Assembly (NCBI GenBank): GCA_011390785.1
Contig: JAABRR010000035.1
Location: forward strand, 1 to 42,057
Length of the DNA: 42,057 nucleotides
Direction of reading: 5' to 3'
From: Sphingobacteriia bacterium
GTDB taxonomy: Bacteria > Bacteroidota > Bacteroidia > Bacteroidales > UBA7960
The translations under genes were made by a program, and so were the position numbers. Shown here in pieces: positions 12,911-24,569 of this stretch (position 1 is the first letter of the stretch; each line of letters begins with the position of its first letter). The notes beneath the pieces are model-generated. The model searched no databases. It had not been told where the DNA came from and worked only from the letters and a program-made list of their open reading frames with translations.

Positions 12911-13876
12911 TTATTTCAGTTGTTCTATCATTGTTCTTAATCTGGATGTTCTGCCGCTTATCTCTTCGGCTCTCGAAATCATATCCAATGCGTTTTGTTT
13001 TTCGCCTTTTCGATAATAGACGAAAGCCTGCAGTGCAAGGTAATCTGCATTTTCTGAGTCAAGGGCAATTAATTCCTGGGTTTTTCTTAATGCAAGTGGA
13101 ATAAATCCATTATTTACATAAATATTGGCCAGATTGAAAATTTTTTTCTCATCATTTTCATTTGAATTGCGAACATCAATTACTTGTTTGGCAACTTCAG
13201 GAAACAGTATTTTCCATTCAGGTTGATGGGCTTGCGGTGAAACACATTGAGAAAAAAGTTCAAGCAATGCATCCGGGTTTTCCCGGTTAATATAATTCAG
13301 CGATAACCGATAAACAGCTTCATCATTGCAAGGGCTAAGCTGCATCGACTTTTCCATATCAGCCTGTGCCATTAGTGGCTTTTCTAAACTGGCAAAAAAA
13401 GAAGATCTTTTGGCATAACTTTCGGCATCTCTTCTTTCTTTTACCACATTATTGAGATTTTCAAGAGAATCTGCAATGGTAATATTACCGGCCAACATAG
13501 GCTGATATTTTGAATCAAACCTATGTTCAAAATGTTTGCCTAATGAGTACAATCCACCTTCCTGAAGTGCCCTTAGAATTATTTCCTGGTCTGTTTCTGT
13601 CAATGGATTATCAACCTTTAAATAATATTGTAACGCCCAGGCAGAATATCCGGAAATAATCATCCGGGTGAAGTAATCTCTTTTTATAGTATCATTTTCT
13701 TCATGAGAAAGAAATATTTCTCCCATTGCCAGGAGCATTTGCTGATTGTTGATTTTATCATCCTGGTAATCCTGAGCCAGTTTTTCCATTTTGCTTTCAG
13801 CTGAATTTAGCGAACAAGCACTAAAAAACAACAGGCAGAAAACAACCAGAGAATATGTGAAAAACAATCTCATCAT
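12911..13876 (-). CDS. TPR-containing lipoprotein coupled to an SGNH protein
   Basis: This is a 321-residue protein with a lipoprotein signal (FFSAC, Cys21). The mature part is largely helical and carries degenerate tetratricopeptide-like repeats. The clearest are AESYAKRSSFFASLEKPLMA, FNLANIYVNNGFIPLALRK and ADYLALQAFVYYRKGEKQNA. TPR lipoproteins act as scaffolds on the periplasmic face of a membrane. The start codon overlaps the stop of the upstream SGNH gene in an ATGA arrangement (4 bases), a strong sign of translational coupling, so the two probably work together. I do not recognise a specific family. A role as adaptor for the SGNH enzyme is inferred only from this coupling. Confidence 0.8.
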   Translation of the reverse strand: MMRLFFTYSLVVFCLLFFSACSLNSAESKMEKLAQDYQDDKINNQQMLLAMGEIFLSHEENDTIKRDYFTRMIISGYSAWALQYYLKVDNPLTETDQEIILRALQEGGLYSLGKHFEHRFDSKYQPMLAGNITIADSLENLNNVVKERRDAESYAKRSSFFASLEKPLMAQADMEKSMQLSPCNDEAVYRLSLNYINRENPDALLELFSQCVSPQAHQPEWKILFPEVAKQVIDVRNSNENDEKKIFNLANIYVNNGFIPLALRKTQELIALDSENADYLALQAFVYYRKGEKQNALDMISRAEEISGRTSRLRTMIEQLK

Positions 13877-15009
13877 GGCTCAATATATTTTTGAAGATAA
13901 TCGGCTACCCTAAGATGACCGGGTTCACTCCAATGATTGTCACCTTCAATATAGCAGGTGCTGATAATTTCCCGGGGATTTTCGTGGTTGATAAAAACCG
14001 GAAAAAGGTTGATAAAATCAATCTCATTCTCGTTGCAAAAAGACCTCCATGTTTCCACATAATAATCTGTTGTATCTCCTTTCAAAACCTGGGTTTGCCA
14101 TGGATGAACGCTAAGCCTGAGATTTATTCCCTTTTCATCGCATATTTCTTTCAATCCTTTAATATTCTTCATGCCTAAATCCAGGCCCTGTTGTGCAAGC
14201 TCCCGAAGCTGATTGTTATAAATCCATTCAGAAACTCCATGAAAATTAGGATCACGAAGGAGGTCTTCATCATCCATATGCCTGAAAAATTCTTTGTATA
14301 ATTCAATGGCAGTGCGTGATGGCAGTTGTTCTGTGTTTTTTTGAAATCCAAGCAAGGTTTGATTAAAAACTTCGAATTCGCGGTTTCGATTGATCGCATC
14401 AAGGGTTGACCAGGTTAAAGAATTGGCTTTAAGAAATCTGTTTGCCTTATAACGTGTTCTTTGGAAAAAAGACTCCTGGGATGGAACAAATGAAGCATAG
14501 GCAATTTCATTCTGAAGATCAGAAATATCGATTACTAACCATATTTCATCAACTTCAAGCCCCAGCGTATTTAACAGATAGTCGCCTTTTAACCAATGTA
14601 TTCTGGGGCTGTAACTTACTGCTGATGCATTCAGTATCTCAACTCCTTTTTTTTCGGCTCTTTCCTGTAACAAACCGGCATAGGTAAATGGATAATCGAT
14701 CCCTACACCTTCTGAATGTGAATCACCCAAAATAAGGATTCTCTTTTTATCAGAAGTAAGAGAAACCTGCCTGTTGGAAAAATCGCGAAATCCGAGATTG
14801 TTGGTGTAGAAAGGATACAAGATAGGCCCCCAGGCTGCAATGGAATTAACGTCTTTTTCCAATCCGTGATGATATACAGCACTCCGGATACGAAATTCGC
14901 TGTAATTGCGGGGTATGAAAATTTGTCCTGTTATGATATCTATCAAAACGAAAAATGCAATAAACAGAATAACAGAAATCAGGGCCAGTCTTTTTTCCTT
15001 TCCTGCCAT
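13873..15009 (-). CDS. Membrane-anchored SGNH/GDSL-like hydrolase or O-acyltransferase-type protein (copy A)
   Basis: This is a 378-residue protein with one N-terminal membrane segment (~8-28) and a periplasmic domain. KRILILGDSHSEGVG places the block I nucleophile Ser97 in GDSHS. EGDNHWSEPGH near the end supplies the Asp357/His359 pair typical of the SGNH catalytic triad. Such proteins act as esterases or acetyl-transfer partners on glycans (AlgX/AlgJ and related). It is a clear paralogue of the protein at 21049-22206: both share YHHGL, LGFRDF, ILNASAVSYSPRIH and IDLSDLQNEI-type segments and the same layout. Copy A is coupled to the TPR lipoprotein gene by a 4-base overlap, while copy B sits with a carbamoyltransferase. 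The substrate is unknown. Confidence 0.82.
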   Translation of the reverse strand: MAGKEKRLALISVILFIAFFVLIDIITGQIFIPRNYSEFRIRSAVYHHGLEKDVNSIAAWGPILYPFYTNNLGFRDFSNRQVSLTSDKKRILILGDSHSEGVGIDYPFTYAGLLQERAEKKGVEILNASAVSYSPRIHWLKGDYLLNTLGLEVDEIWLVIDISDLQNEIAYASFVPSQESFFQRTRYKANRFLKANSLTWSTLDAINRNREFEVFNQTLLGFQKNTEQLPSRTAIELYKEFFRHMDDEDLLRDPNFHGVSEWIYNNQLRELAQQGLDLGMKNIKGLKEICDEKGINLRLSVHPWQTQVLKGDTTDYYVETWRSFCNENEIDFINLFPVFINHENPREIISTCYIEGDNHWSEPGHLRVADYLQKYIEP

Positions 15010-15281: not shown

Positions 15282-17393
15282 TTAGTGTTTAACCACTTTA
15301 ATAGCATTGGTTTCACCATTGAGACGAATCAGGTAAATACCATTGTTAAGATCCTGCATATTAAGCTGGTTAACGGCTTTTACTGATTTTAGTTTTGCAC
15401 CAACAATATTATATACTTCAACATCGGCAGGTTGGTTCCCATTGATGTAAAGAACACCATTGTTTATGTAAGCGCGAATTTCACGATTATTGAGAACCAG
15501 GTTATCTACATTGGTTCCGAGAATGGTAGCAGAGAGGGTAAGATGACCGCTATAGAAGTTGGAAGCATATCCGTTGTTTTTATCAGCAGCCCAGAAATAT
15601 TCAACTTTATTGTCGTTTTCAGTACCACCAACGGTAGCATTTGATTTAACATCAAAAGCAAAGGTTTCTCCAACCTGAATAGCAGTTCTGTCTCCGCCAA
15701 GATCAGTTGGATCATTTGGATAGGAAAGAGCTCCATCAAATGAGAAGATCAGCACAGCACGAAGAATTCCATCAGTTGAATCCCAGTAGAGATTCTGATC
15801 CAGGAATGACTCCAGACCTGCTTCGTTGGCTCCCCAGCCACCACGCCATAATCCGCTGGCTTCGTGGAATGTTTTTGATAAACCTGCAGAAGCAGCAAAC
15901 TCGGTTACCGAACCATCTTTAAAGAGTGCTTTACCACCACCTAACTCAACAAAACGGGCATAGGCCATATTCTCATAGGCAACTCTTACTGCCTCGGCAC
16001 TGTCTGCAGCAGCAGTGAAAGAAGGCTCATGACGTACAGGAGAAGTTGGTTGTGACATAACTTCGAATGAGTAAGAACCTGCATCAGCCTGTGCATTCAA
16101 ATCCCAATACTTCAATAACACGTGTAGGTTAGCTCCATCATGAACAGCTTTCCATTGTGCACCAAAGGTATTACCAGTACCAACATCAAAAAGATCACCG
16201 GCAACACCATTAGAAGTGAGATTGTTAACACTGTTGGCATCACCCAAAAGATCCCAGGTGGCATCAAAAGATGTGTTATCTGCAATTTCTGACCAGCCAG
16301 CAGGAGCCTGGAAAACTTCATAAGTGGGATTGGTATAAGGGTTAGCAGCGTAACCAGTTACATCAGCATAATCAGGTTCAATAGCCCAGTTTACCCAGCT
16401 AACTCCAGAAAAAGTAACAGCAGGCTCTTCTCCTAGTACCTGATTTGCAAGAGTGAGGTGTCCACTATAATAGTTGGAAGCATAACCGTTGTTTTTGTCA
16501 GCAGCCCAGAAATATTCAACTTTGTTGTCGTTTTCAGTACCACCAACGGTAGCATTTGATTTAACATCAAAAGCAAAGGTTTCTCCAACCTGAATAGCAG
16601 TTCTGTCTCCGCCAAGGTCAGTAGGATCATTTGGATAGGAAAGAGCACCATCAAACGAAAAGATCAGCACAGCACGAAGAATTCCATCAGTTAAATCCCA
16701 GTAGAGATTCTGTTCCAGGAATGACTCCAGACCTGCTTCGTTGGCTCCCCAGCCACCACGCCATAATCCGCTGGCTTCGTGGAATGTTTTTGATAAACCT
16801 GCAGAAGCAGCAAATTCGGTTACCGAACCATCTTTAAAGAGTGCTTTACCACCACCTAACTCAACAAAACGGGCATAAGCCATATTCTCATAGGCAACTC
16901 TTACTGCCTCGGCACTGTCTGCAGCAGCAGTGAAAGAAGGCTCATGACGTACAGGAGAAGTTGGCTGTGACATAACTTCGAATGAGTAAGAACCTGCATC
17001 AGCCTGTGCATTCAAATCCCAATACTTCAATAACACGTGAAGGTTAGCTCCATCATGAACAGCTTTCCATTGTGCACCAAAGGTATTACCAGTACCAACA
17101 TCAAAAAGATCGCCGGCAACACCGTTAGAAGTAAGATTGTTAACACTGTTGGCATCACCCAAAAGATCCCAGGTGGCATCAAAAGATGTGTTATCTGCTA
17201 TTTCTGACCAGCCAGCAGGAGCTTTGTAAACGATGTAGGTTGGATTCTCATAGGGATTGGCTTCATAACCTGTTACATCAGGGTAATCAGGTTCAACTGC
17301 CCAGTTTACCCAGCTAACTCCCGAAAAGGTAGTTTGTCCGTAGGTAAATACGGATAACATTAACAACGCTAATAGTAAATTTAGTTTTTTCAT
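15282..17393 (-). CDS. T9SS-secreted protein with two nearly identical CBM9-like modules
   Basis: This is a 703-residue protein: signal peptide (~1-20, ending TYGQ), module 1 (~23-321), module 2 (~328-626), and a C-terminal T9SS type A sorting domain (~633-703, with VEVYNIVGAKLKSV and GIYLIRLNG). Each module begins FSGVSWVNWA and contains a stretch like FDATWDLLGDANSV, then GAQWKAVHDGANLHVLLKYWD, and ends VEYFWAADKNNGYAS. That is the strand pattern of CBM9/DOMON-type carbohydrate- or ligand-binding sandwiches. The family call is tentative. No catalytic residues are evident, so surface or extracellular binding is the likely role. The modules differ at only about ten residues. LacI-type operator-like sites lie 117-177 bases upstream, so sugar-responsive control is plausible. 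Confidence 0.8.
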   Translation of the reverse strand: MKKLNLLLALLMLSVFTYGQTTFSGVSWVNWAVEPDYPDVTGYEANPYENPTYIVYKAPAGWSEIADNTSFDATWDLLGDANSVNNLTSNGVAGDLFDVGTGNTFGAQWKAVHDGANLHVLLKYWDLNAQADAGSYSFEVMSQPTSPVRHEPSFTAAADSAEAVRVAYENMAYARFVELGGGKALFKDGSVTEFAASAGLSKTFHEASGLWRGGWGANEAGLESFLEQNLYWDLTDGILRAVLIFSFDGALSYPNDPTDLGGDRTAIQVGETFAFDVKSNATVGGTENDNKVEYFWAADKNNGYASNYYSGHLTLANQVLGEEPAVTFSGVSWVNWAIEPDYADVTGYAANPYTNPTYEVFQAPAGWSEIADNTSFDATWDLLGDANSVNNLTSNGVAGDLFDVGTGNTFGAQWKAVHDGANLHVLLKYWDLNAQADAGSYSFEVMSQPTSPVRHEPSFTAAADSAEAVRVAYENMAYARFVELGGGKALFKDGSVTEFAASAGLSKTFHEASGLWRGGWGANEAGLESFLDQNLYWDSTDGILRAVLIFSFDGALSYPNDPTDLGGDRTAIQVGETFAFDVKSNATVGGTENDNKVEYFWAADKNNGYASNFYSGHLTLSATILGTNVDNLVLNNREIRAYINNGVLYINGNQPADVEVYNIVGAKLKSVKAVNQLNMQDLNNGIYLIRLNGETNAIKVVKH
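15516..16412 (-). repeat. Tandem repeat unit, second copy (encodes residues ~328-626)
   Basis: This is the downstream copy of a 915-base in-frame tandem duplication inside the T9SS gene; the partner is at 16431-17327. From SEIADNTSF to LESFL, nearly 190 residues, the two copies are identical in protein and differ only by scattered silent changes in DNA. Differences cluster at the module start (seven changes in about 30 residues). This pattern fits a recent duplication or ongoing gene conversion. Confidence 0.9.
16431..17327 (-). repeat. Tandem repeat unit, first copy (encodes residues ~23-321)
   Basis: This is the upstream copy of the same duplication, period 915 bases (305 codons). It is joined to the second copy by a short linker (about residues 322-327, EEPAVT). 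Recombination between copies would yield a single-module protein in frame. Confidence 0.9.
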
Positions 17394-18407: not shown

Positions 18408-18577
18408 TCTTCTAAAGTAAATAGGTACTTGAGAAATAATTCTCTGTTTAGGAAAAGCGAATTTAGGAAAAATAATTTGTATCATTCTCCAAATATTTGA
18501 TGGTAAGTTGCCAATTAAAAAATATTTCTAATTTTACAATCCAGAAAAAACCGGTAAAATTCATTAACAATTTCCCT

Positions 18578-18967
18578 ATGAAGCTATTTAAGCGAAATAT
18601 AACCCTGGCCCAAACTTACGGTTCAGGGCTTGCATTAATCCTGATTTTTCTGATCATCTTCTTTTTCAAACGGGAAATTCTTTACATCCAGATTATTACC
18701 GGAATTACCATTCTTTTAATGATATGGACTACTCCATTCAGGTATTTTGGAATTTTGTGGATGGCCTTTGGCGATGGGATGGGAAAAATTGTAAGCCGGA
18801 TTGTTCTCAGTGCAATTTTTTTGCTGCTTGTAGTGCCGGTAGGCCTGGTAAAAGGGGGGCATATACGAAAAACCATGCAAATTAATCTATTTGGAAAAGG
18901 GCAGGCATCTCTTTTTAAAAACCGGGATCATGTTTTTTCTAAAAACGATTTTGAAAAACCTTTCTAA
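18578..18967 (+). CDS. SxtJ-like small membrane protein
   Basis: I take the ATG at 18578, giving 129 residues that begin MKLFKRNITLAQTYGSGLAL. The open frame extends back to 18497, but the added stretch is polar and unlike the family. About three hydrophobic segments (~15-30, ~34-50 and ~73-92) flank a conserved-looking WTTPFRYFGILWMAFGDGMG. The C-terminal tail is cytosolic-type and charged. This matches what I recall of SxtJ-type proteins, which sit beside O-carbamoyltransferases in saxitoxin clusters and in many unrelated bacteria; their function is unknown. It starts a tight plus-strand cluster: 14 bases to the DUF5989-like gene, then the carbamoyltransferase and an SGNH gene. It is probably a membrane partner of that enzyme. 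Confidence 0.75.
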   Translation: MKLFKRNITLAQTYGSGLALILIFLIIFFFKREILYIQIITGITILLMIWTTPFRYFGILWMAFGDGMGKIVSRIVLSAIFLLLVVPVGLVKGGHIRKTMQINLFGKGQASLFKNRDHVFSKNDFEKPF

Positions 18968-18981
18968 ACATACACAAACCC

Positions 18982-19131
18982 ATGGAACTATTAAAAGACC
19001 TGTTCGACTTTCTTAAGACCCGCAAAAAATTCTGGATGATTCCGCTTATTGTAATTTTGCTGTTTTTCAGCTTCCTGATCATCCTTTCCGGTGGAAGTGC
19101 TATAGCACCGTTTATTTATACCTTGTTCTAG
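18982..19131 (+). CDS. 49-residue DUF5989/SxtK-like membrane peptide
   Basis: ATG at 18982 and TAG at 19129-19131 encode 49 residues. They begin MELLKDLFDFLKTRKKFWM, an amphipathic, charged N-terminus. One strong transmembrane helix follows (about 19-38), then SGGSAIAPFIYTLF at the C-terminus. The LxxLxxFLxxRKKxW start and the GGSAIAPFIYTLF end match what I recall of DUF5989 and of SxtK, a short protein encoded beside SxtI and SxtJ. The gene is easily missed because of its size. It lies 14 bases after the SxtJ-like stop and 45 bases before the carbamoyltransferase start, and is probably translated in the same transcript. A role as membrane anchor or recruiter of the carbamoyltransferase is inferred. 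Confidence 0.8.
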   Translation: MELLKDLFDFLKTRKKFWMIPLIVILLFFSFLIILSGGSAIAPFIYTLF

Positions 19132-19176
19132 ACTAATTGACAATCAACAAGTATGAGATAAAACTTATCCGAAAAC

Positions 19177-21036
19177 ATGTCAGAAATAATAATCGGAATA
19201 TCAGCCTTTTACCATGACAGCGCAGCATGCATTGTAAAAGACGGGAAAATAATTGCAGCAGCACAGGAAGAACGGTTCACCAGGAAAAAGCACGACAGTG
19301 CTTTCCCTGAAAATGCCCTTTCCTATGTGCTTTCGCAGCTCGATACCGATCCGTCCCAGGTAAACTACATTACCTTTTATGACAAACCGCTGTTGAAATT
19401 TGAACGGCTTATAGAAACCTACCACGCCTTTGCCCCCAAAGGTATGAGCAGCTTTTTCCAGGCTATGCCGGTGTGGCTAAAGGAAAAACTTTTGATCAAA
19501 CATAACATACGCAATGAGCTGAAAAAACATGGGCTGGAAAATTGCCCGGTACTCTTCCCCGAGCATCACCTTTCGCATGCAGCCAGCGCCTTCTTCCCCT
19601 CCCCGTTTGATGATGCCGCTATCCTTACCGTAGATGGTGTGGGAGAATGGACCACAACCACCTTAGGGCATGGGAAAGGAAATAAAATCAGCATTTTGAA
19701 GGAGATGCACTTTCCACACTCACTGGGTTTACTCTATTCTGCTTTTACCTATTATTGCGGTTTCAGGGTAAATAGTGGCGAATACAAACTGATGGGACTG
19801 GCCCCCTACGGTCAAAACGGTGCCGAAGAAACCGAAACTTTTAAGCGCAAAACCCTTGAACATCTTATTGATGTGCGCAATGACGGCTCTTTTGTGCTCA
19901 ACATGAAATATTTCAGCTATGCCACCGGATTAAAAATGACCAACAACAACCGCTGGGAAAAGCTATTCGGGATTCCGCCCAGGAAGCCGGAAACAGAGAT
20001 CGGGCAGTCTTACTGCAATATGGCCCTGGCCATACAACAGATTACTGAAGACATTATGCTGAAACTGGCCCAAACAGCCAAAGAGCTTTCCGGATCAAAA
20101 AACCTGGTAATGGCGGGTGGGGTTGCACTAAACAGTGTTGCCAATGGCAAACTCGAAAGAAGTGGTATTTTCGACCGGATCTGGATACAACCTGCTGCCG
20201 GAGATGCCGGTGGTGCATTGGGTGCGGCAATGGCCACTTATCATATCTATCTCAATAAAGATCGGATGGTAGTGCCCCAAAAAGACAGCATGCAGGGCGC
20301 TTTGCTTGGGCCTGAATTTTCAGCATTCGAAATCGTTAAAGCCCTGAACAAATACAATGCAACCTGGGAAGAAAGAAATTCTTTCGAAACCCTGGCACAG
20401 GAAACAGCGGATCTGCTCAATCAGGGTAAAATTGTTGGATGGTTCCAGGGGAGAATGGAGTTTGGACCGCGGGCTCTGGGCAACCGCAGCATTTTGGGAG
20501 ATGCCCGCAATAAGGAGATGCAAAAACGGCTCAACCTTCAGATTAAATTCAGGGAGAGTTTTCGTCCGTTTGCCCCATCAGTTCTTTCAGAAAAAACAAA
20601 AGATCTTTTTGATACCCCTTACGATTCACCTTACATGCTCATCGTTTGCCCGGTGCAGCAAGAACGATTGAATAAACTTCCTGACGATTACGACAAACTC
20701 CCTTTGCTCGAAAAACTTTATTATGAACGCAGCGATGTGCCGGCAATTACCCATATCGACTATTCTGCCCGTATCCAAACCGTGCATGCTGATACCAATC
20801 CGCGGTACCATAAATTGATAGAAAAATTCGAAAAAACGACAGGATATCCGGTAATCATCAATACCAGTTTCAATGTACGGGGAGAACCCATCGTTTGCAA
20901 ACCTGAAGATGCCTTTGTTTGCTTTATGAGAACCGATATGGATGTGCTGGTGATGGGAAATTATATTCTGTTCAAAGAAAACCAGCAAAATGTAAAGCCT
21001 TTGCCCCGGTTCGATTTTCTGGATAGTTTGGATTAA
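19177..21036 (+). CDS. O-carbamoyltransferase, NodU/CmcH/SxtI family
   Basis: This is a 619-residue cytosolic enzyme that transfers a carbamoyl group from carbamoyl phosphate (through carbamoyl-AMP) to a hydroxyl. N-terminal ASKHA-like domain (~1-345): GISAFYHDSAACIV at the start, EHHLSHAASAFF with His130, His131 and His134 (metal and active-site histidines), TVDGVGEW near 152 and MAGGVALNSVANGKL near 312. C-terminal YrdC-like domain (~395-590): GRMEFGPRALGNRSIL near 425 and INTSFNVRGEPIVC near 562. All family landmarks are present, so it should be active. The neighbours are an SxtJ-like and a DUF5989/SxtK-like membrane protein upstream and an SGNH protein 12 bases downstream. The acceptor is unknown. 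The membrane partners argue for a lipid-linked or envelope glycan rather than a soluble toxin. Confidence 0.93.
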   Translation: MSEIIIGISAFYHDSAACIVKDGKIIAAAQEERFTRKKHDSAFPENALSYVLSQLDTDPSQVNYITFYDKPLLKFERLIETYHAFAPKGMSSFFQAMPVWLKEKLLIKHNIRNELKKHGLENCPVLFPEHHLSHAASAFFPSPFDDAAILTVDGVGEWTTTTLGHGKGNKISILKEMHFPHSLGLLYSAFTYYCGFRVNSGEYKLMGLAPYGQNGAEETETFKRKTLEHLIDVRNDGSFVLNMKYFSYATGLKMTNNNRWEKLFGIPPRKPETEIGQSYCNMALAIQQITEDIMLKLAQTAKELSGSKNLVMAGGVALNSVANGKLERSGIFDRIWIQPAAGDAGGALGAAMATYHIYLNKDRMVVPQKDSMQGALLGPEFSAFEIVKALNKYNATWEERNSFETLAQETADLLNQGKIVGWFQGRMEFGPRALGNRSILGDARNKEMQKRLNLQIKFRESFRPFAPSVLSEKTKDLFDTPYDSPYMLIVCPVQQERLNKLPDDYDKLPLLEKLYYERSDVPAITHIDYSARIQTVHADTNPRYHKLIEKFEKTTGYPVIINTSFNVRGEPIVCKPEDAFVCFMRTDMDVLVMGNYILFKENQQNVKPLPRFDFLDSLD

Positions 21037-21048
21037 TAAGAAATAAAC

Positions 21049-22206
21049 ATGGGTTTGAAAAAAAACAATTTAAAAGTATTCTCTTTCTTACTTCTTATCT
21101 TTCTTGTTCTTTTCATTGCACTCGATTTACTCCTTGCACGGATTTTCATCAGGTACAGCGACCGGAGTGTGCGGATTGAGCACCACTACTATCATCATGG
21201 ACTGATTCCGAACCAGAAAGTAATTGCCAACTGGTACAACATCCGCTACAACCTGTTTACCAACTCGCTGGGATTCAGAGATTTTGACACCAGAAAAATT
21301 CCACTCCAAACTGACAAAAGACGGATTCTGATCATGGGGGATTCGCACAGCGAAGGGGTGGGTCTGAATTTCAGTGAGACCTTTGCCGGTATGTTACACA
21401 CGGTGGTTGACACATCGCACATTGAGATACTCAACGCCTCAGCGGTAAGTTATTCTCCGCGCATACACTACCTGAAAACCAAATATTTGCTCGAGGAAAC
21501 AAAACTCCGGTTTGATGAGATGATTGTCGTGATCGATCTATCGGATCTTCAAAATGAGATAGTTTATGAAAATTATGAGCCGAAAGAACCGGGCTGGAGG
21601 AACCAGGTTAAAATAAAAATCTATCATTGGCTTGTAAACAGGTCGTTTACATTCCATACGTTTGCCCAATTGAACCAAAACAGAAAAACCCGGGCATTTC
21701 TGAATAAAGCGGAAATTTTTGAAGAATACAGCCAACAGGATGAGCACAAAGATGCTTTGGATATGTATGCAACTTTTTTTTCAGGGTTTGATGACAAAAC
21801 CCTTCTTTCCAATCCTCAGTTTCATAGTGTGGGTAACTGGATTTATGATGAAACATTGTGGCCTCTGGCAGAGAAAGGGTTAAAGGTTGGAGCAGAAAAT
21901 ATTAAGAAGCTGGCAACACTATGCCATAAGCATGGAATAAAACTAACCATTAGTGTGCATCCATGGCCCGAACAGATAAAACTTAGGCAGACTGAAAATC
22001 GTTATACACAGTTTTGGCAGGAAGTAGCAGGTGAAAACCAGATTGGGTTTATCAATCTTTATCCTGATTTTATTTACCCATCCTTCTCAGCTGCCTTTGG
22101 CACCGATCTGTTCATACCCGGAGATAATCATTGGAATAAAAACGGAAACTACATTGTTGCTAAACGTTTGGCTGAATACATCAACACTATTGAAGCAACA
22201 AAGTAG
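21049..22206 (+). CDS. Membrane-anchored SGNH/GDSL-like protein (copy B) of the carbamoyltransferase cluster
   Basis: This is a 385-residue protein with one N-terminal membrane helix (~9-31) and a periplasmic SGNH-type domain. The nucleophile is Ser99 in RRILIMGDSHSEGVG; PGDNHWNKNGN near the C-terminus gives Asp359 and His361. It begins 12 bases after the carbamoyltransferase stop, so it is almost certainly in the same transcript. It is paralogous over its whole length to copy A at 13873-15009. SGNH proteins with this layout remove or transfer acyl groups on exported polysaccharides. A link between carbamoylation and acyl editing of one envelope product is an inference. No gene follows on this strand, so it ends the cluster. 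Confidence 0.85.
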   Translation: MGLKKNNLKVFSFLLLIFLVLFIALDLLLARIFIRYSDRSVRIEHHYYHHGLIPNQKVIANWYNIRYNLFTNSLGFRDFDTRKIPLQTDKRRILIMGDSHSEGVGLNFSETFAGMLHTVVDTSHIEILNASAVSYSPRIHYLKTKYLLEETKLRFDEMIVVIDLSDLQNEIVYENYEPKEPGWRNQVKIKIYHWLVNRSFTFHTFAQLNQNRKTRAFLNKAEIFEEYSQQDEHKDALDMYATFFSGFDDKTLLSNPQFHSVGNWIYDETLWPLAEKGLKVGAENIKKLATLCHKHGIKLTISVHPWPEQIKLRQTENRYTQFWQEVAGENQIGFINLYPDFIYPSFSAAFGTDLFIPGDNHWNKNGNYIVAKRLAEYINTIEATK

Positions 22207-22267: not shown

Positions 22268-23551
22268 TTAGTTCAGATTTAAGACCAGGCCAGCTCTGGC
22301 ACCAACCCACCAGCGTGTGTTCCAGTCTTCATGAAAATTATTGCTGTAAAAGTCCCATCCACCCGGAGAAAGTTCCGGAATATTTGCGTTGGAGCCGGCA
22401 TCCCAGGTATGGTTATACAATACCGGACCAGCGAACAAACTGAGCTGGGACGTAAGATCGTGCTTATACAACACACGCAGTTCTGACAAAAGATTGGTGG
22501 GTTGGTCATGCCATAGCCGCTCACTTTCCACCTGGTAGCTATGAGTCTCGACCAATACGGATGATTTTTCACCTGAATAAACGGTAGAGCCTACACCATA
22601 TCCAAAACCGAAGAAAAAATTCTCACCTTCCGGTCTTACACCAAAAGAGAAAATATTATAGAACAACGGTACACCAATTTTAAAAGATGCGTTGGCATAC
22701 ATGGCGTCTGAAGCTCCTGCTTCCCACTGTCGCAATCCACCCTTTTTCACTATGCTCAAAAATCCAACGGGCAATCCATTTATGGTATCAGCGTAGTTGA
22801 TAAAACCCAGTTGAATTCCATCAGCCTGTTTTGCAACATTCAGAAAACCTGCTGCCTGAATTCCCTGCATATCGTCTGCAATATTCATAAAACCCGCCAT
22901 TTGAATTCCCTGCATGGTTTTGCCTGTTACATTTCCAAAGCCTGCCAGCGAGATACCCTGGGTTTCATCCTTAGCCACATTCATAAAACCTGCAGATTGA
23001 AATCCCTGAAATCCCTGGCCTGATGTATTCATAAATCCGGCAAGGCGGATTCCGGCAAATGAGTTTCGATTAACATTCATAAACCCGGCCATAGAAATTG
23101 ATTCACTGCTGCCATTGGTAACGTTCATAAATCCTGCTCCCTGAATACCGGTATAATCGCCGTTAATGGTATTCATAAACCCAGCAAAATTAAGCCCTTC
23201 GGCTTCTCCATTGATTACATTCATAAAGCCCGAGCCCTGGAATCCGCTAAATTCACCGTTGATAATATTTGCAAAACCGGCAAATTGTGCACCCTGAACA
23301 TTTCCTTTGTTAATATTCATGAAGCCACCAGCTTCAAAGCCATCAAGGCCACCGGTTACCCCGGAAAACAGGTTCAGACTAACCTTATACCGATATTGAC
23401 TGGATTGCAACCCGTCGGTACCCAATCCGGGAAATAAACTTAACTGGAAATCCTTAACAGGTTTCTCCTGGCTATTATTCTGCGCCTGCCCGGAAGCAGA
23501 AAAAAACAATAAAGCTGATAAAACTAAAGTGGAATAAAAATTTGTTTTCAT
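22268..23551 (-). CDS. Surface protein with ~12 GFMN-type 16-residue repeats (LA_2272-like)
   Basis: This is a 427-residue exported protein: signal peptide ~1-24 (ending GQAQ), a short linker, then residues ~71-268 built of about twelve repeats of 15-16 residues. The consensus is G-hydrophobic-Q-x-AGFMN-V-x-x-G/D, for example GLNFAGFMNTINGDYT. This resembles LA_2272-type surface repeats, which probably form a beta-solenoid. The C-terminal ~150 residues alternate aromatic and polar residues and end ARAGLVLNLN, like outer-membrane barrel strands. A surface-exposed repeat fused to a barrel-like anchor is therefore likely. The gene stands alone, convergent with the carbamoyltransferase cluster (61-base gap). 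The repeats degrade towards the C-terminal end (GIQLGFINY, GLPVGFLSI). Biological role unknown. Confidence 0.75.
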   Translation of the reverse strand: MKTNFYSTLVLSALLFFSASGQAQNNSQEKPVKDFQLSLFPGLGTDGLQSSQYRYKVSLNLFSGVTGGLDGFEAGGFMNINKGNVQGAQFAGFANIINGEFSGFQGSGFMNVINGEAEGLNFAGFMNTINGDYTGIQGAGFMNVTNGSSESISMAGFMNVNRNSFAGIRLAGFMNTSGQGFQGFQSAGFMNVAKDETQGISLAGFGNVTGKTMQGIQMAGFMNIADDMQGIQAAGFLNVAKQADGIQLGFINYADTINGLPVGFLSIVKKGGLRQWEAGASDAMYANASFKIGVPLFYNIFSFGVRPEGENFFFGFGYGVGSTVYSGEKSSVLVETHSYQVESERLWHDQPTNLLSELRVLYKHDLTSQLSLFAGPVLYNHTWDAGSNANIPELSPGGWDFYSNNFHEDWNTRWWVGARAGLVLNLN

Positions 23552-24009: not shown

Positions 24010-24255
24010 ATGGATGTTTCAGTTATTAAAATAGGCAATTCTAAGGGAATCCGTTTAAGCAAAAGCCTTTTGGAAAGATACAATATCAAAGATACAGTCG
24101 AAATGATATTAGAAAAAGGGCATATTGTAATTAAACCCAAAGCAAACCCTCGTAATGGTTGGGAAACCGCATTCAGGAAAATGCATGAGTCAGGTGATGA
24201 CAAGGCACTTATGAATGATGTTTTTGAAGATGAAAATTTTGAAGAATGGATTTAA
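24010..24255 (+). CDS. mazE: MazE-type antitoxin (AbrB/SpoVT fold)
   Basis: This is an 81-residue protein. The N-terminal ~48 residues (VSVIKIGNSKGIRLSKSLLE onward, ending GHIVIKPK) form a swapped-hairpin AbrB/MazE DNA-binding domain; IGNSKGIRLSKSLL is the classic signature. The acidic C-terminal tail (DDKALMNDVFEDENFEEWI) should be disordered when free and wrap around the toxin. It overlaps the toxin gene by 10 bases. It would neutralise the RNase and repress its own promoter through the inverted repeat just upstream. Confidence 0.92.
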   Translation: MDVSVIKIGNSKGIRLSKSLLERYNIKDTVEMILEKGHIVIKPKANPRNGWETAFRKMHESGDDKALMNDVFEDENFEEWI

Positions 24256-24569
24256 AACAATACCAGATTGTATTGGTAAATCTCGATCCAACAGTTGGTA
24301 GTGAAATTAAAAAGACCAGACCTTGTGTAATTATTTCTCCGAATGAGATGAATAAATATCTCAATACGGTGATTATTGCACCCATGACAACTCAATCAAA
24401 AAAGTATCCAACAACAATTGAAATCAATCATGACAATAAAAAAGGCTGGATAGTTCTTGACCAAATTCGCACAATTGATAAACAACGTGTTTATAAAGTA
24501 TTAGATAACCTAACAATTACAGAAATTGAGAAAGTCAAAATGATAATAAAGGAATTATTGGTTGATTGA
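24246..24569 (+). CDS. mazF: MazF-type endoribonuclease toxin
   Basis: This is a 107-residue PemK/MazF-like toxin that cleaves RNA at short sequence motifs. It begins MDLKQYQIVLVNLDPTVGSEIKKTRPCVII, whose VNLDPTVGSEIKKTRP is the family's first catalytic loop (Arg of the TRP motif). APMTTQSKKYPTTIE carries the conserved Thr, and GWIVLDQIRTIDKQR gives the QIRTIDKxR motif. Length (~110) and all key residues are normal, so the toxin looks intact. It overlaps mazE by 10 bases and is expressed from the same promoter. No other toxin-antitoxin pair is seen. The target motif cannot be predicted. Confidence 0.93.
   Translation: MDLKQYQIVLVNLDPTVGSEIKKTRPCVIISPNEMNKYLNTVIIAPMTTQSKKYPTTIEINHDNKKGWIVLDQIRTIDKQRVYKVLDNLTITEIEKVKMIIKELLVD

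Follow-up and report, generated by a model that had tools for sequence, protein, structure and literature searches.

A carbamoyltransferase gene cluster whose membrane microprotein ends in FXYXXF: a candidate tyrosine-shuttle relay for carbamoyl groups in Bacteroidota

Four adjacent genes of the SxtJ, DUF5989/SxtK, carbamoyltransferase and SGNH kinds were analysed in a contig of a Sphingobacteriia bacterium (Bacteroidota; Genbank assembly GCA_011390785.1, contig JAABRR010000035.1), the whole stretch of 42,057 nucleotides being referred to as the window. The SxtJ-like, DUF5989/SxtK and carbamoyltransferase genes and their products are designated J, K and I hereafter; together they are termed the trio and, with the SGNH gene, the quartet. 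All four open reading frames are located on the forward strand with intergenic gaps of 14, 45 and 12 bases, and their positions confirmed the gene order, coordinates and packing given in a first-pass annotation made from the sequence alone. J (18578..18967) encodes a membrane protein of 129 amino acids with three hydrophobic segments when read from an ATG, a mechanical list of open reading frames giving a longer version with a TTG start at 18497. K (18982..19131) encodes a microprotein of 49 amino acids with one hydrophobic segment, I (19177..21036) a polypeptide of 619 amino acids, and the SGNH gene (21049..22206) a membrane-anchored protein of 385 amino acids with a hydrophobic segment at residues 10–28. 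K terminates in the hexapeptide FIYTLF (19111..19128), an instance of the FXYXXF motif, with the codon for Tyr46 at 19117-19119. We propose, with confidence that is evenly balanced, that the four products form a machine that carries carbamoyl through the cytoplasmic membrane and attaches it to a hydroxyl on the outside, with J as a dock for I and K, K as the carbamoyl shuttle and the SGNH protein as terminal transferase.

The family labels of the first-pass annotation were borne out by Pfam for K and I, whereas J and the SGNH protein scored below the cut-offs and were assigned by context, a local profile and a fold model. K matched DUF5989 (PF19451) with 83 bits against a cut-off of 27 over 49/49 model positions, clearly placing it in this family. 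I matched Carbam_trans_N (PF02543; 302.7 bits, cut-off 24) and Carbam_trans_C (PF16861; 251.5 bits, cut-off 27), carries the GPRALGNRS motif intact and could be aligned with NovN, GdmN and TobZ, enzymes of known structure. It is clearly a member of the TobZ/NodU/SxtI-type O-carbamoyltransferase family, with carbamoyl transfer as its predicted activity; the motif is written GPRALGGRS and termed a putative catalytic site in the available text of PMC3037375. J was named SxtJ-like because its score against SxtJ (PF19588), 23.4 bits, was slightly below the cut-off of 24.4; its identity rests on context and on a profile of 51 J relatives, the J of the window among them, and its structure model has helices at residues 10-31, 34-49 and 52-99.

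The 385-residue protein reached 24.6 bits against ALGX (cut-off 26.5), and no SGNH-type Pfam model was over its cut-off. Its predicted structure nevertheless has an SGNH fold, and its context also points to this identity. The active site of SGNH enzymes is formed by blocks containing GDS, Asn and DxH. In the window protein Ser99, Asn129, Asp359 and His361 were invariant across eight aligned sequences. Sequence searches of the PDB matched no SGNH entry with this protein and returned no match for K. A fold search with the SGNH model identified CgnD (PDB 8a2n) as the closest solved fold, with many esterases among the nearest; DltD, PatB and AlgX were absent among the 50 fold matches listed, which excludes nothing.

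The hexapeptide at the end of K, overlooked in the first-pass annotation, is a feature of its relatives. Two sets of loci were compared: the best 80 of 593 confirmed relatives of I in the genome collection, drawn from many phyla (first set), and 60 hand-picked, mostly high-scoring loci from 105 over-cut-off K matches, representing 59 of 104 genomes (K-anchored set). The last six residues, F-[IV]-Y-x-x-F, lie at the very C-terminus, and an exact C-terminal FXYXXF was found in 73/75 loci of the first set and 60/60 of the K-anchored set, with the tyrosine present in all. The tyrosine was also kept in seven further K proteins, some of which vary elsewhere in the tail (PYIYAMF, PLIYTMF, PFIYTLY). 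Among 1,980 other proteins of at least 85 amino acids encoded in the annotated loci, six ended in FXYXXF, five of them membrane-bound O-acyltransferases (MBOATs) according to Pfam. Five loci (L073, L125, L126, L212, L213), three of them K loci, combine an MBOAT with this ending, a carbamoyltransferase and an SGNH gene in one neighbourhood; these are possibly mixed acylation and carbamoylation clusters.

FXYXXF is described, in the portion of PMC12148441 available, as the acyl-shuttle motif of DltX and of MBOAT acyltransferases. In that account, the tyrosine of the membrane microprotein DltX receives D-alanine from the MBOAT DltB and passes it to the catalytic serine of the SGNH protein DltD, while PatA acetylates its own C-terminal tyrosine and an acetylated FIYANF peptide serves PatB as donor (PMC12148441). 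A second source gives the DltX tail as FLYFGF and, in its available text, calls the role of DltX unclear (PMC11035591). K shares with DltX a single hydrophobic segment, a C-terminal FXYXXF and an invariant tyrosine, and the tails are similar (PPPFIYNGF in the DltX of L225, APFIYTLF in K). The DltX family (PF12459) was not among the Pfam matches of K up to E = 1, which comprised DUF5989 and a weak match to ATP-synt_Z. One DltX, that of L225, was found among the 4 + 81 genomes searched with PF12459, too few for a profile comparison with K, and a PDB search with it returned one match, which was chance-like. Because Lys and Arg are concentrated before the hydrophobic segment of K (mean 4.7 in the first set) and almost absent after it, its sequence suggests an orientation with the N-terminus inside and the C-terminus outside. 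No link between DUF5989 or SxtK and the FXYXXF shuttle motif was found in the open-licence papers searched, and DUF5989 was not found by name in that full-text collection.

J, K and I are encoded together well beyond this contig. Both J and K were located beside I in 73/80 loci of the first set, and the arrangement is therefore beyond chance. In four of the seven exceptions (L014, L031, L042, L043) the contig stops next to I or within it; the others are L033, which lacks J and has a contig end 0.9 kb upstream, and L060 and L081, which lack K. The gene order varied (J-K-I, I-K-J or I-J-K), so that linkage is conserved though order is not. SusC/SusD and sorting tails point to Bacteroidota as the phylum of the window. 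In a sample of 296 genomes of this phylum, K was found over its cut-off in 104, the carbamoyltransferase in 127 and J, by the 51-row profile, in 103, corresponding to 71/140 genera for K and 69/140 for J. All 103 genomes with J also carried K and the enzyme and none had J only; in the sole genome with K only (G105), K is a fragment interrupted by a stop and located close to where a contig starts. In 35/103 genomes J and K were more than 6 kb apart or on separate contigs, so that their co-occurrence is more than the passing on of a single operon.

In the second phylum, that of Pelagibacteraceae (L050), 279 genomes yielded 53 with K and 52 with J, of which 50 had both, three K only and two J only; the enzyme was present in all 53 K genomes, and 57 further genomes had the enzyme with neither J nor K. 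One K-only genome (G570) has K at a contig start, and the K of G691 and the J of the J-only genome G578 are fragments. Two genomes of the first phylum whose K was under the cut-off (G331, G198) were removed from these counts, as were two of the second (G535, G561), and shared ancestry inflates all of them. The co-occurrence expected by the first-pass annotation thus held for J, K and I in two phyla (103 of 296 and 50 of 279 genomes) and in part for the SGNH gene (44/78 and 20/40 trio loci).

K was also seen apart from I and J in eight loci (L162, L164, L168, L170, L171, L173, L174, L184) whose genomes still keep both; there K adjoins an opposite-strand gene of ~410-430 amino acids that by eye resembles an ABC permease. 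L244 (7426-7867, reverse strand) contains a tandem pair of K genes with C-termini PLIYTMF and PFIYTLY.

Within the lineage of the window the module is rare and accessory, K being present in 5/59 relatives and 0/11 congeners, and the SGNH proteins of the window in its own genome only among the 59 relatives. Nine nth-side loci of the genus were compared, its own genome included. J, K and I had no matches in the eight congener stretches, five of which (L227, L229, L231, L233, L234) have another gene upstream of nth, which we take to be aminopeptidase-like; L230 has a different gene there, and L228 and L232 stop at a contig end. An empty-site comparison at nth gave no clean insertion boundary in these nine loci.

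A phylogenetic analysis of 160 enzymes with FastTree separated all 20 enzymes of K-negative genomes from the 140 others with a support of 0.999. The 20 represent loci from 19 of 24 K-negative genomes; of the 140, 114 are linked to K, 20 come from genomes that have K at another place, and six lie at contig ends or have J only. The tree omits truncated enzymes, any second enzyme of a K-positive genome, and TobZ, NovN and GdmN, whose structures are solved. I of the window belongs to the K-positive clade, in which residues 74-104 (19396..19488 in the window, forward strand) are conserved; in K-negative enzymes this segment is gapped or changed, and it is a possible dock for J and K.

Two loci, L238 and L239, encode a single protein of 738 amino acids consisting of a carbamoyltransferase (~1-593) and J (~610-734); the next gene is K, and an SGNH gene comes after it. 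The J part matched SxtJ with 23.7 bits in L238, under the cut-off, and gave no match in L239, and among the SGNH proteins behind the fusions Pfam recognised GDSL weakly in that of L238 only. These fusions argue that J contacts I and that the N-terminus of J is cytosolic; in the model of J, an inward N-terminus with three passes would put the charged tail outside, a poor fit to the positive-inside rule. A different fusion in L241 (7599-10805, reverse strand), a protein of 1068 amino acids located beside I and J, combines an SGNH domain with a further, diverged carbamoyltransferase domain and has no clear membrane segment. Its sequence supports a link between SGNH proteins and carbamoyltransferases but not an outside location there.

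Genes for SGNH proteins were enriched beside the trio. With a local profile, partly trained on near genes, they accounted for 47/291 genes within two of the trio and 3/480 further off (p 6e-18, ancestry ignored). Two loci without a clear I by the simple gene caller (L012, L074) were dropped from these counts, leaving 78 of 80, and an SGNH gene lay within two genes of 44/78 trios in the first set and 20/40 in the K-anchored set, compared with 3/20 enzyme loci of K-negative genomes (20/40 vs 3/20, Fisher p = 0.011, ancestry ignored). An untrained comparison using Pfam agreed. Among 115 near genes (of 131; same-strand runs of proteins of up to 800 amino acids, repeats of one Pelagibacter gene thinned), GDSL families led with 18 (Lipase_GDSL_2, 18/115) and 13 genes, followed by TPR with 9 and ALGX with 4. 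No GDSL family was among the 25 families listed (smallest count 2) for 115 far genes at least three genes away, which were drawn at random from 451 on both strands and thus under a different strand rule. Many of the neighbouring SGNH proteins are 330-450 amino acids long; of six larger ones (579-751 amino acids) given to Pfam, those listed combined GDSL and TPR (L009, L016, L063, L015), except L060 with ALGX only. Glycosyltransferases and other polysaccharide genes also occur near the trio. An SGNH gene next to the trio is thus a preference and not a rule; its status as a strict fourth partner was considered and rejected as too strong given the 44/78 and 20/40 loci.

TobZ-type enzymes convert carbamoyl phosphate and ATP into carbamoyl-adenylate. 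In the relay proposed here, I would carry out this reaction in the cytosol and J would anchor I at the membrane. The carbamoyl group would then be placed on Tyr46 in the FXYXXF tail of K, as D-alanine is on DltX and acetyl on the tyrosine of PatA, pass to Ser99 of the membrane-anchored SGNH protein and finally be transferred to an exported acceptor such as an envelope glycan; a glycan, a lipid or a polysaccharide may serve. The proposal is built on the identity of the parts, their co-occurrence, the motif, the active-site residues, the two I-J fusions and the enrichment of SGNH genes; from these we infer the direction of transfer and the membrane topology, that carbamoyl is the cargo, that J lets I reach the tail of K, and that the SGNH protein acts as a transferase rather than a hydrolase.

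The first-pass annotation had read the locus otherwise, with J and K recruiting a cytosolic I to a membrane acceptor on the inner face and the SGNH protein acting after export as an independent acyl-editing esterase. The I-J fusions do show association of J with I, esterases are numerous among the nearest solved folds of the SGNH protein, and an SGNH gene adjoins only about half of the trios. However, recruitment gives no account of the exact FXYXXF end of K and its invariant tyrosine, a motif otherwise found here almost only in MBOATs, and we consider this explanation unlikely, if worth keeping in view. K, given its tail, seems to be more than a recruiter; and since K ends in a motif that hands acyl groups to SGNH transferases, by analogy a role as terminal transferase in the same relay is more likely for the SGNH protein than separate editing. 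An SGNH protein acting as decarbamoylase, with I adding the group, the SGNH protein removing it and J and K as accessories of I, would agree with the proposal for SxtL in the available parts of PMC2679770 and PMC3037375 and with the hydrolase Ser, Asp and His of the window protein; but the role of SxtL is itself a proposal there and the motif of K would be unexplained, which makes it improbable. Least probable is a self-contained trio carbamoylating a cytosolic metabolite beside an SGNH gene of general glycan modification, to which the stricter conservation of the trio than of the quartet and the nearby glycosyltransferase and other polysaccharide genes are favourable, but which fits poorly with GDSL families heading the near genes and being absent from the listed far families, and with L238 and L239 having I-J fusion, K and SGNH gene in a row.

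Several points weigh against the relay. Its weakest step is the loading of K, the unit having no MBOAT and J being small: a Pfam scan of 16 window proteins turned up no MBOAT and gave no DltX match for K, leaving the loading of the tyrosine without precedent. How the cytosolic I would gain access to an outward-facing tail is likewise unexplained, and a hexapeptide can arise by convergence. The folds nearest to the SGNH model are those of CgnD and esterases, not of DltD or PatB, and the SGNH domain of the L241 fusion may be cytosolic. Only about half of the trios have an SGNH gene nearby, in the same orientation as the trio in 10 cases and the opposite in 15, and SGNH genes were within two genes of K in 3/20 K loci without a full trio and of the enzyme in 2/20 loci with K elsewhere; the enrichment tests ignore shared ancestry. 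K was not near I in 19/60 K-anchored loci. In the second phylum G602 has K and I with no J found, and G539, the genome of L241, has J and I with no K found, both being single absences in searches that scored limited first-look candidates and possibly misses. Finally, saxitoxin, the known product beside such a quartet, is a small molecule.

What is new here is that the C-terminus of K is FXYXXF, which, as judged by sequence, likely makes the system an MBOAT-free relay that moves carbamoyl on a shuttle tyrosine; relays of this type have so far been described with different cargo groups and different membrane enzymes. The motif gives SxtJ and SxtK a testable mechanism. If the relay is real, bacteria can bring an activated group across the membrane with neither MBOAT nor AT3, carbamoyl is added to D-alanine and acetyl as cargo, and a trio found in 103/296 Bacteroidota genomes, as well as in Pelagibacteraceae, takes part in modifying what the cell exports. 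The distribution is wide, from Pelagibacteraceae to Bacteroidota. More tentatively, as something that falls a little short of an even chance, the relay may represent a further class of transmembrane acyl relay without MBOAT or AT3, serving exported glycans or metabolites, with SxtJ and SxtK acquiring a function and SxtL recast as a transferase.

Elsewhere in the window, a second SGNH gene (13873..15009, reverse strand) lies ~6 kb from the first on the opposite strand; its product is 42% identical and may be a further member of the system. It overlaps a gene for a TPR-like lipoprotein (12911..13876, reverse strand) with a weak TPR_2 match under the cut-off; SGNH-TPR fusions were found beside other trios. 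Convergent with the quartet is a gene at 22268-23551 (reverse strand) with many short GFMN-type repeats and no Pfam match. A 703-residue secreted protein (15282-17393, reverse strand) has a sorting tail, under the cut-off, and halves 95% alike over 301 residues, and a type II toxin-antitoxin pair (24010-24569, forward strand) consists of MazE-like (under the cut-off) and PemK/MazF-like genes in tandem.

Among the closest counterparts of the proposed relay is the Dlt system for D-alanylation of teichoic acids (DltA, DltC, DltB, DltX, DltD), which, in the available text of PMC12148441, likewise combines a cytosolic activating enzyme, an FXYXXF microprotein and an SGNH partner. Here, in contrast, a carbamoyltransferase stands in the place of DltA/DltC and J in that of DltB, an MBOAT; Pfam does not place K in the DltX family, and the cargo is presumably carbamoyl. 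MBOAT-SGNH pairs such as PatA/PatB, and the alginate and cellulose systems as argued in the same portion of that paper, resemble it in having an SGNH partner and a shuttle tyrosine within a C-terminal FXYXXF; there the motif is fused to the MBOAT, whereas here it ends a free microprotein, as a rule without an MBOAT alongside. With TobZ, NovN, GdmN and NodU, I has both Pfam domains and the GPRALGNRS motif in common, while it falls in its own clade with its own segments relative to the K-negative enzymes sampled, TobZ, NovN and GdmN lying outside that tree. CgnD differs in being an SGNH-like enzyme that slowly releases a peptide core in vitro; its crocagin cluster also contains a carbamoyltransferase. 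The saxitoxin genes sxtI, sxtJ, sxtK and sxtL are of the same four kinds (O-carbamoyltransferase, SxtJ, SxtK and GDSL/SGNH), the presence of the GDSL gene sxtL beside sxtI-J-K having been missed in the first-pass annotation, but they belong to a small-molecule pathway of which no other gene was recognised in the window. In the available parts of the saxitoxin papers decarbamoylation is the proposed role of sxtL, a GDSL lipase, and sxtJ and sxtK are 'unknown' or hypothetical (PMC2679770, PMC2684587, PMC3037375). The Lyngbya wollei cluster has a truncated sxtI and lacks sxtL, with sxtJ and sxtK unmentioned in the main text as available (PMC3037375); this pattern, for which its authors give another reason, is as expected if the four genes work together.

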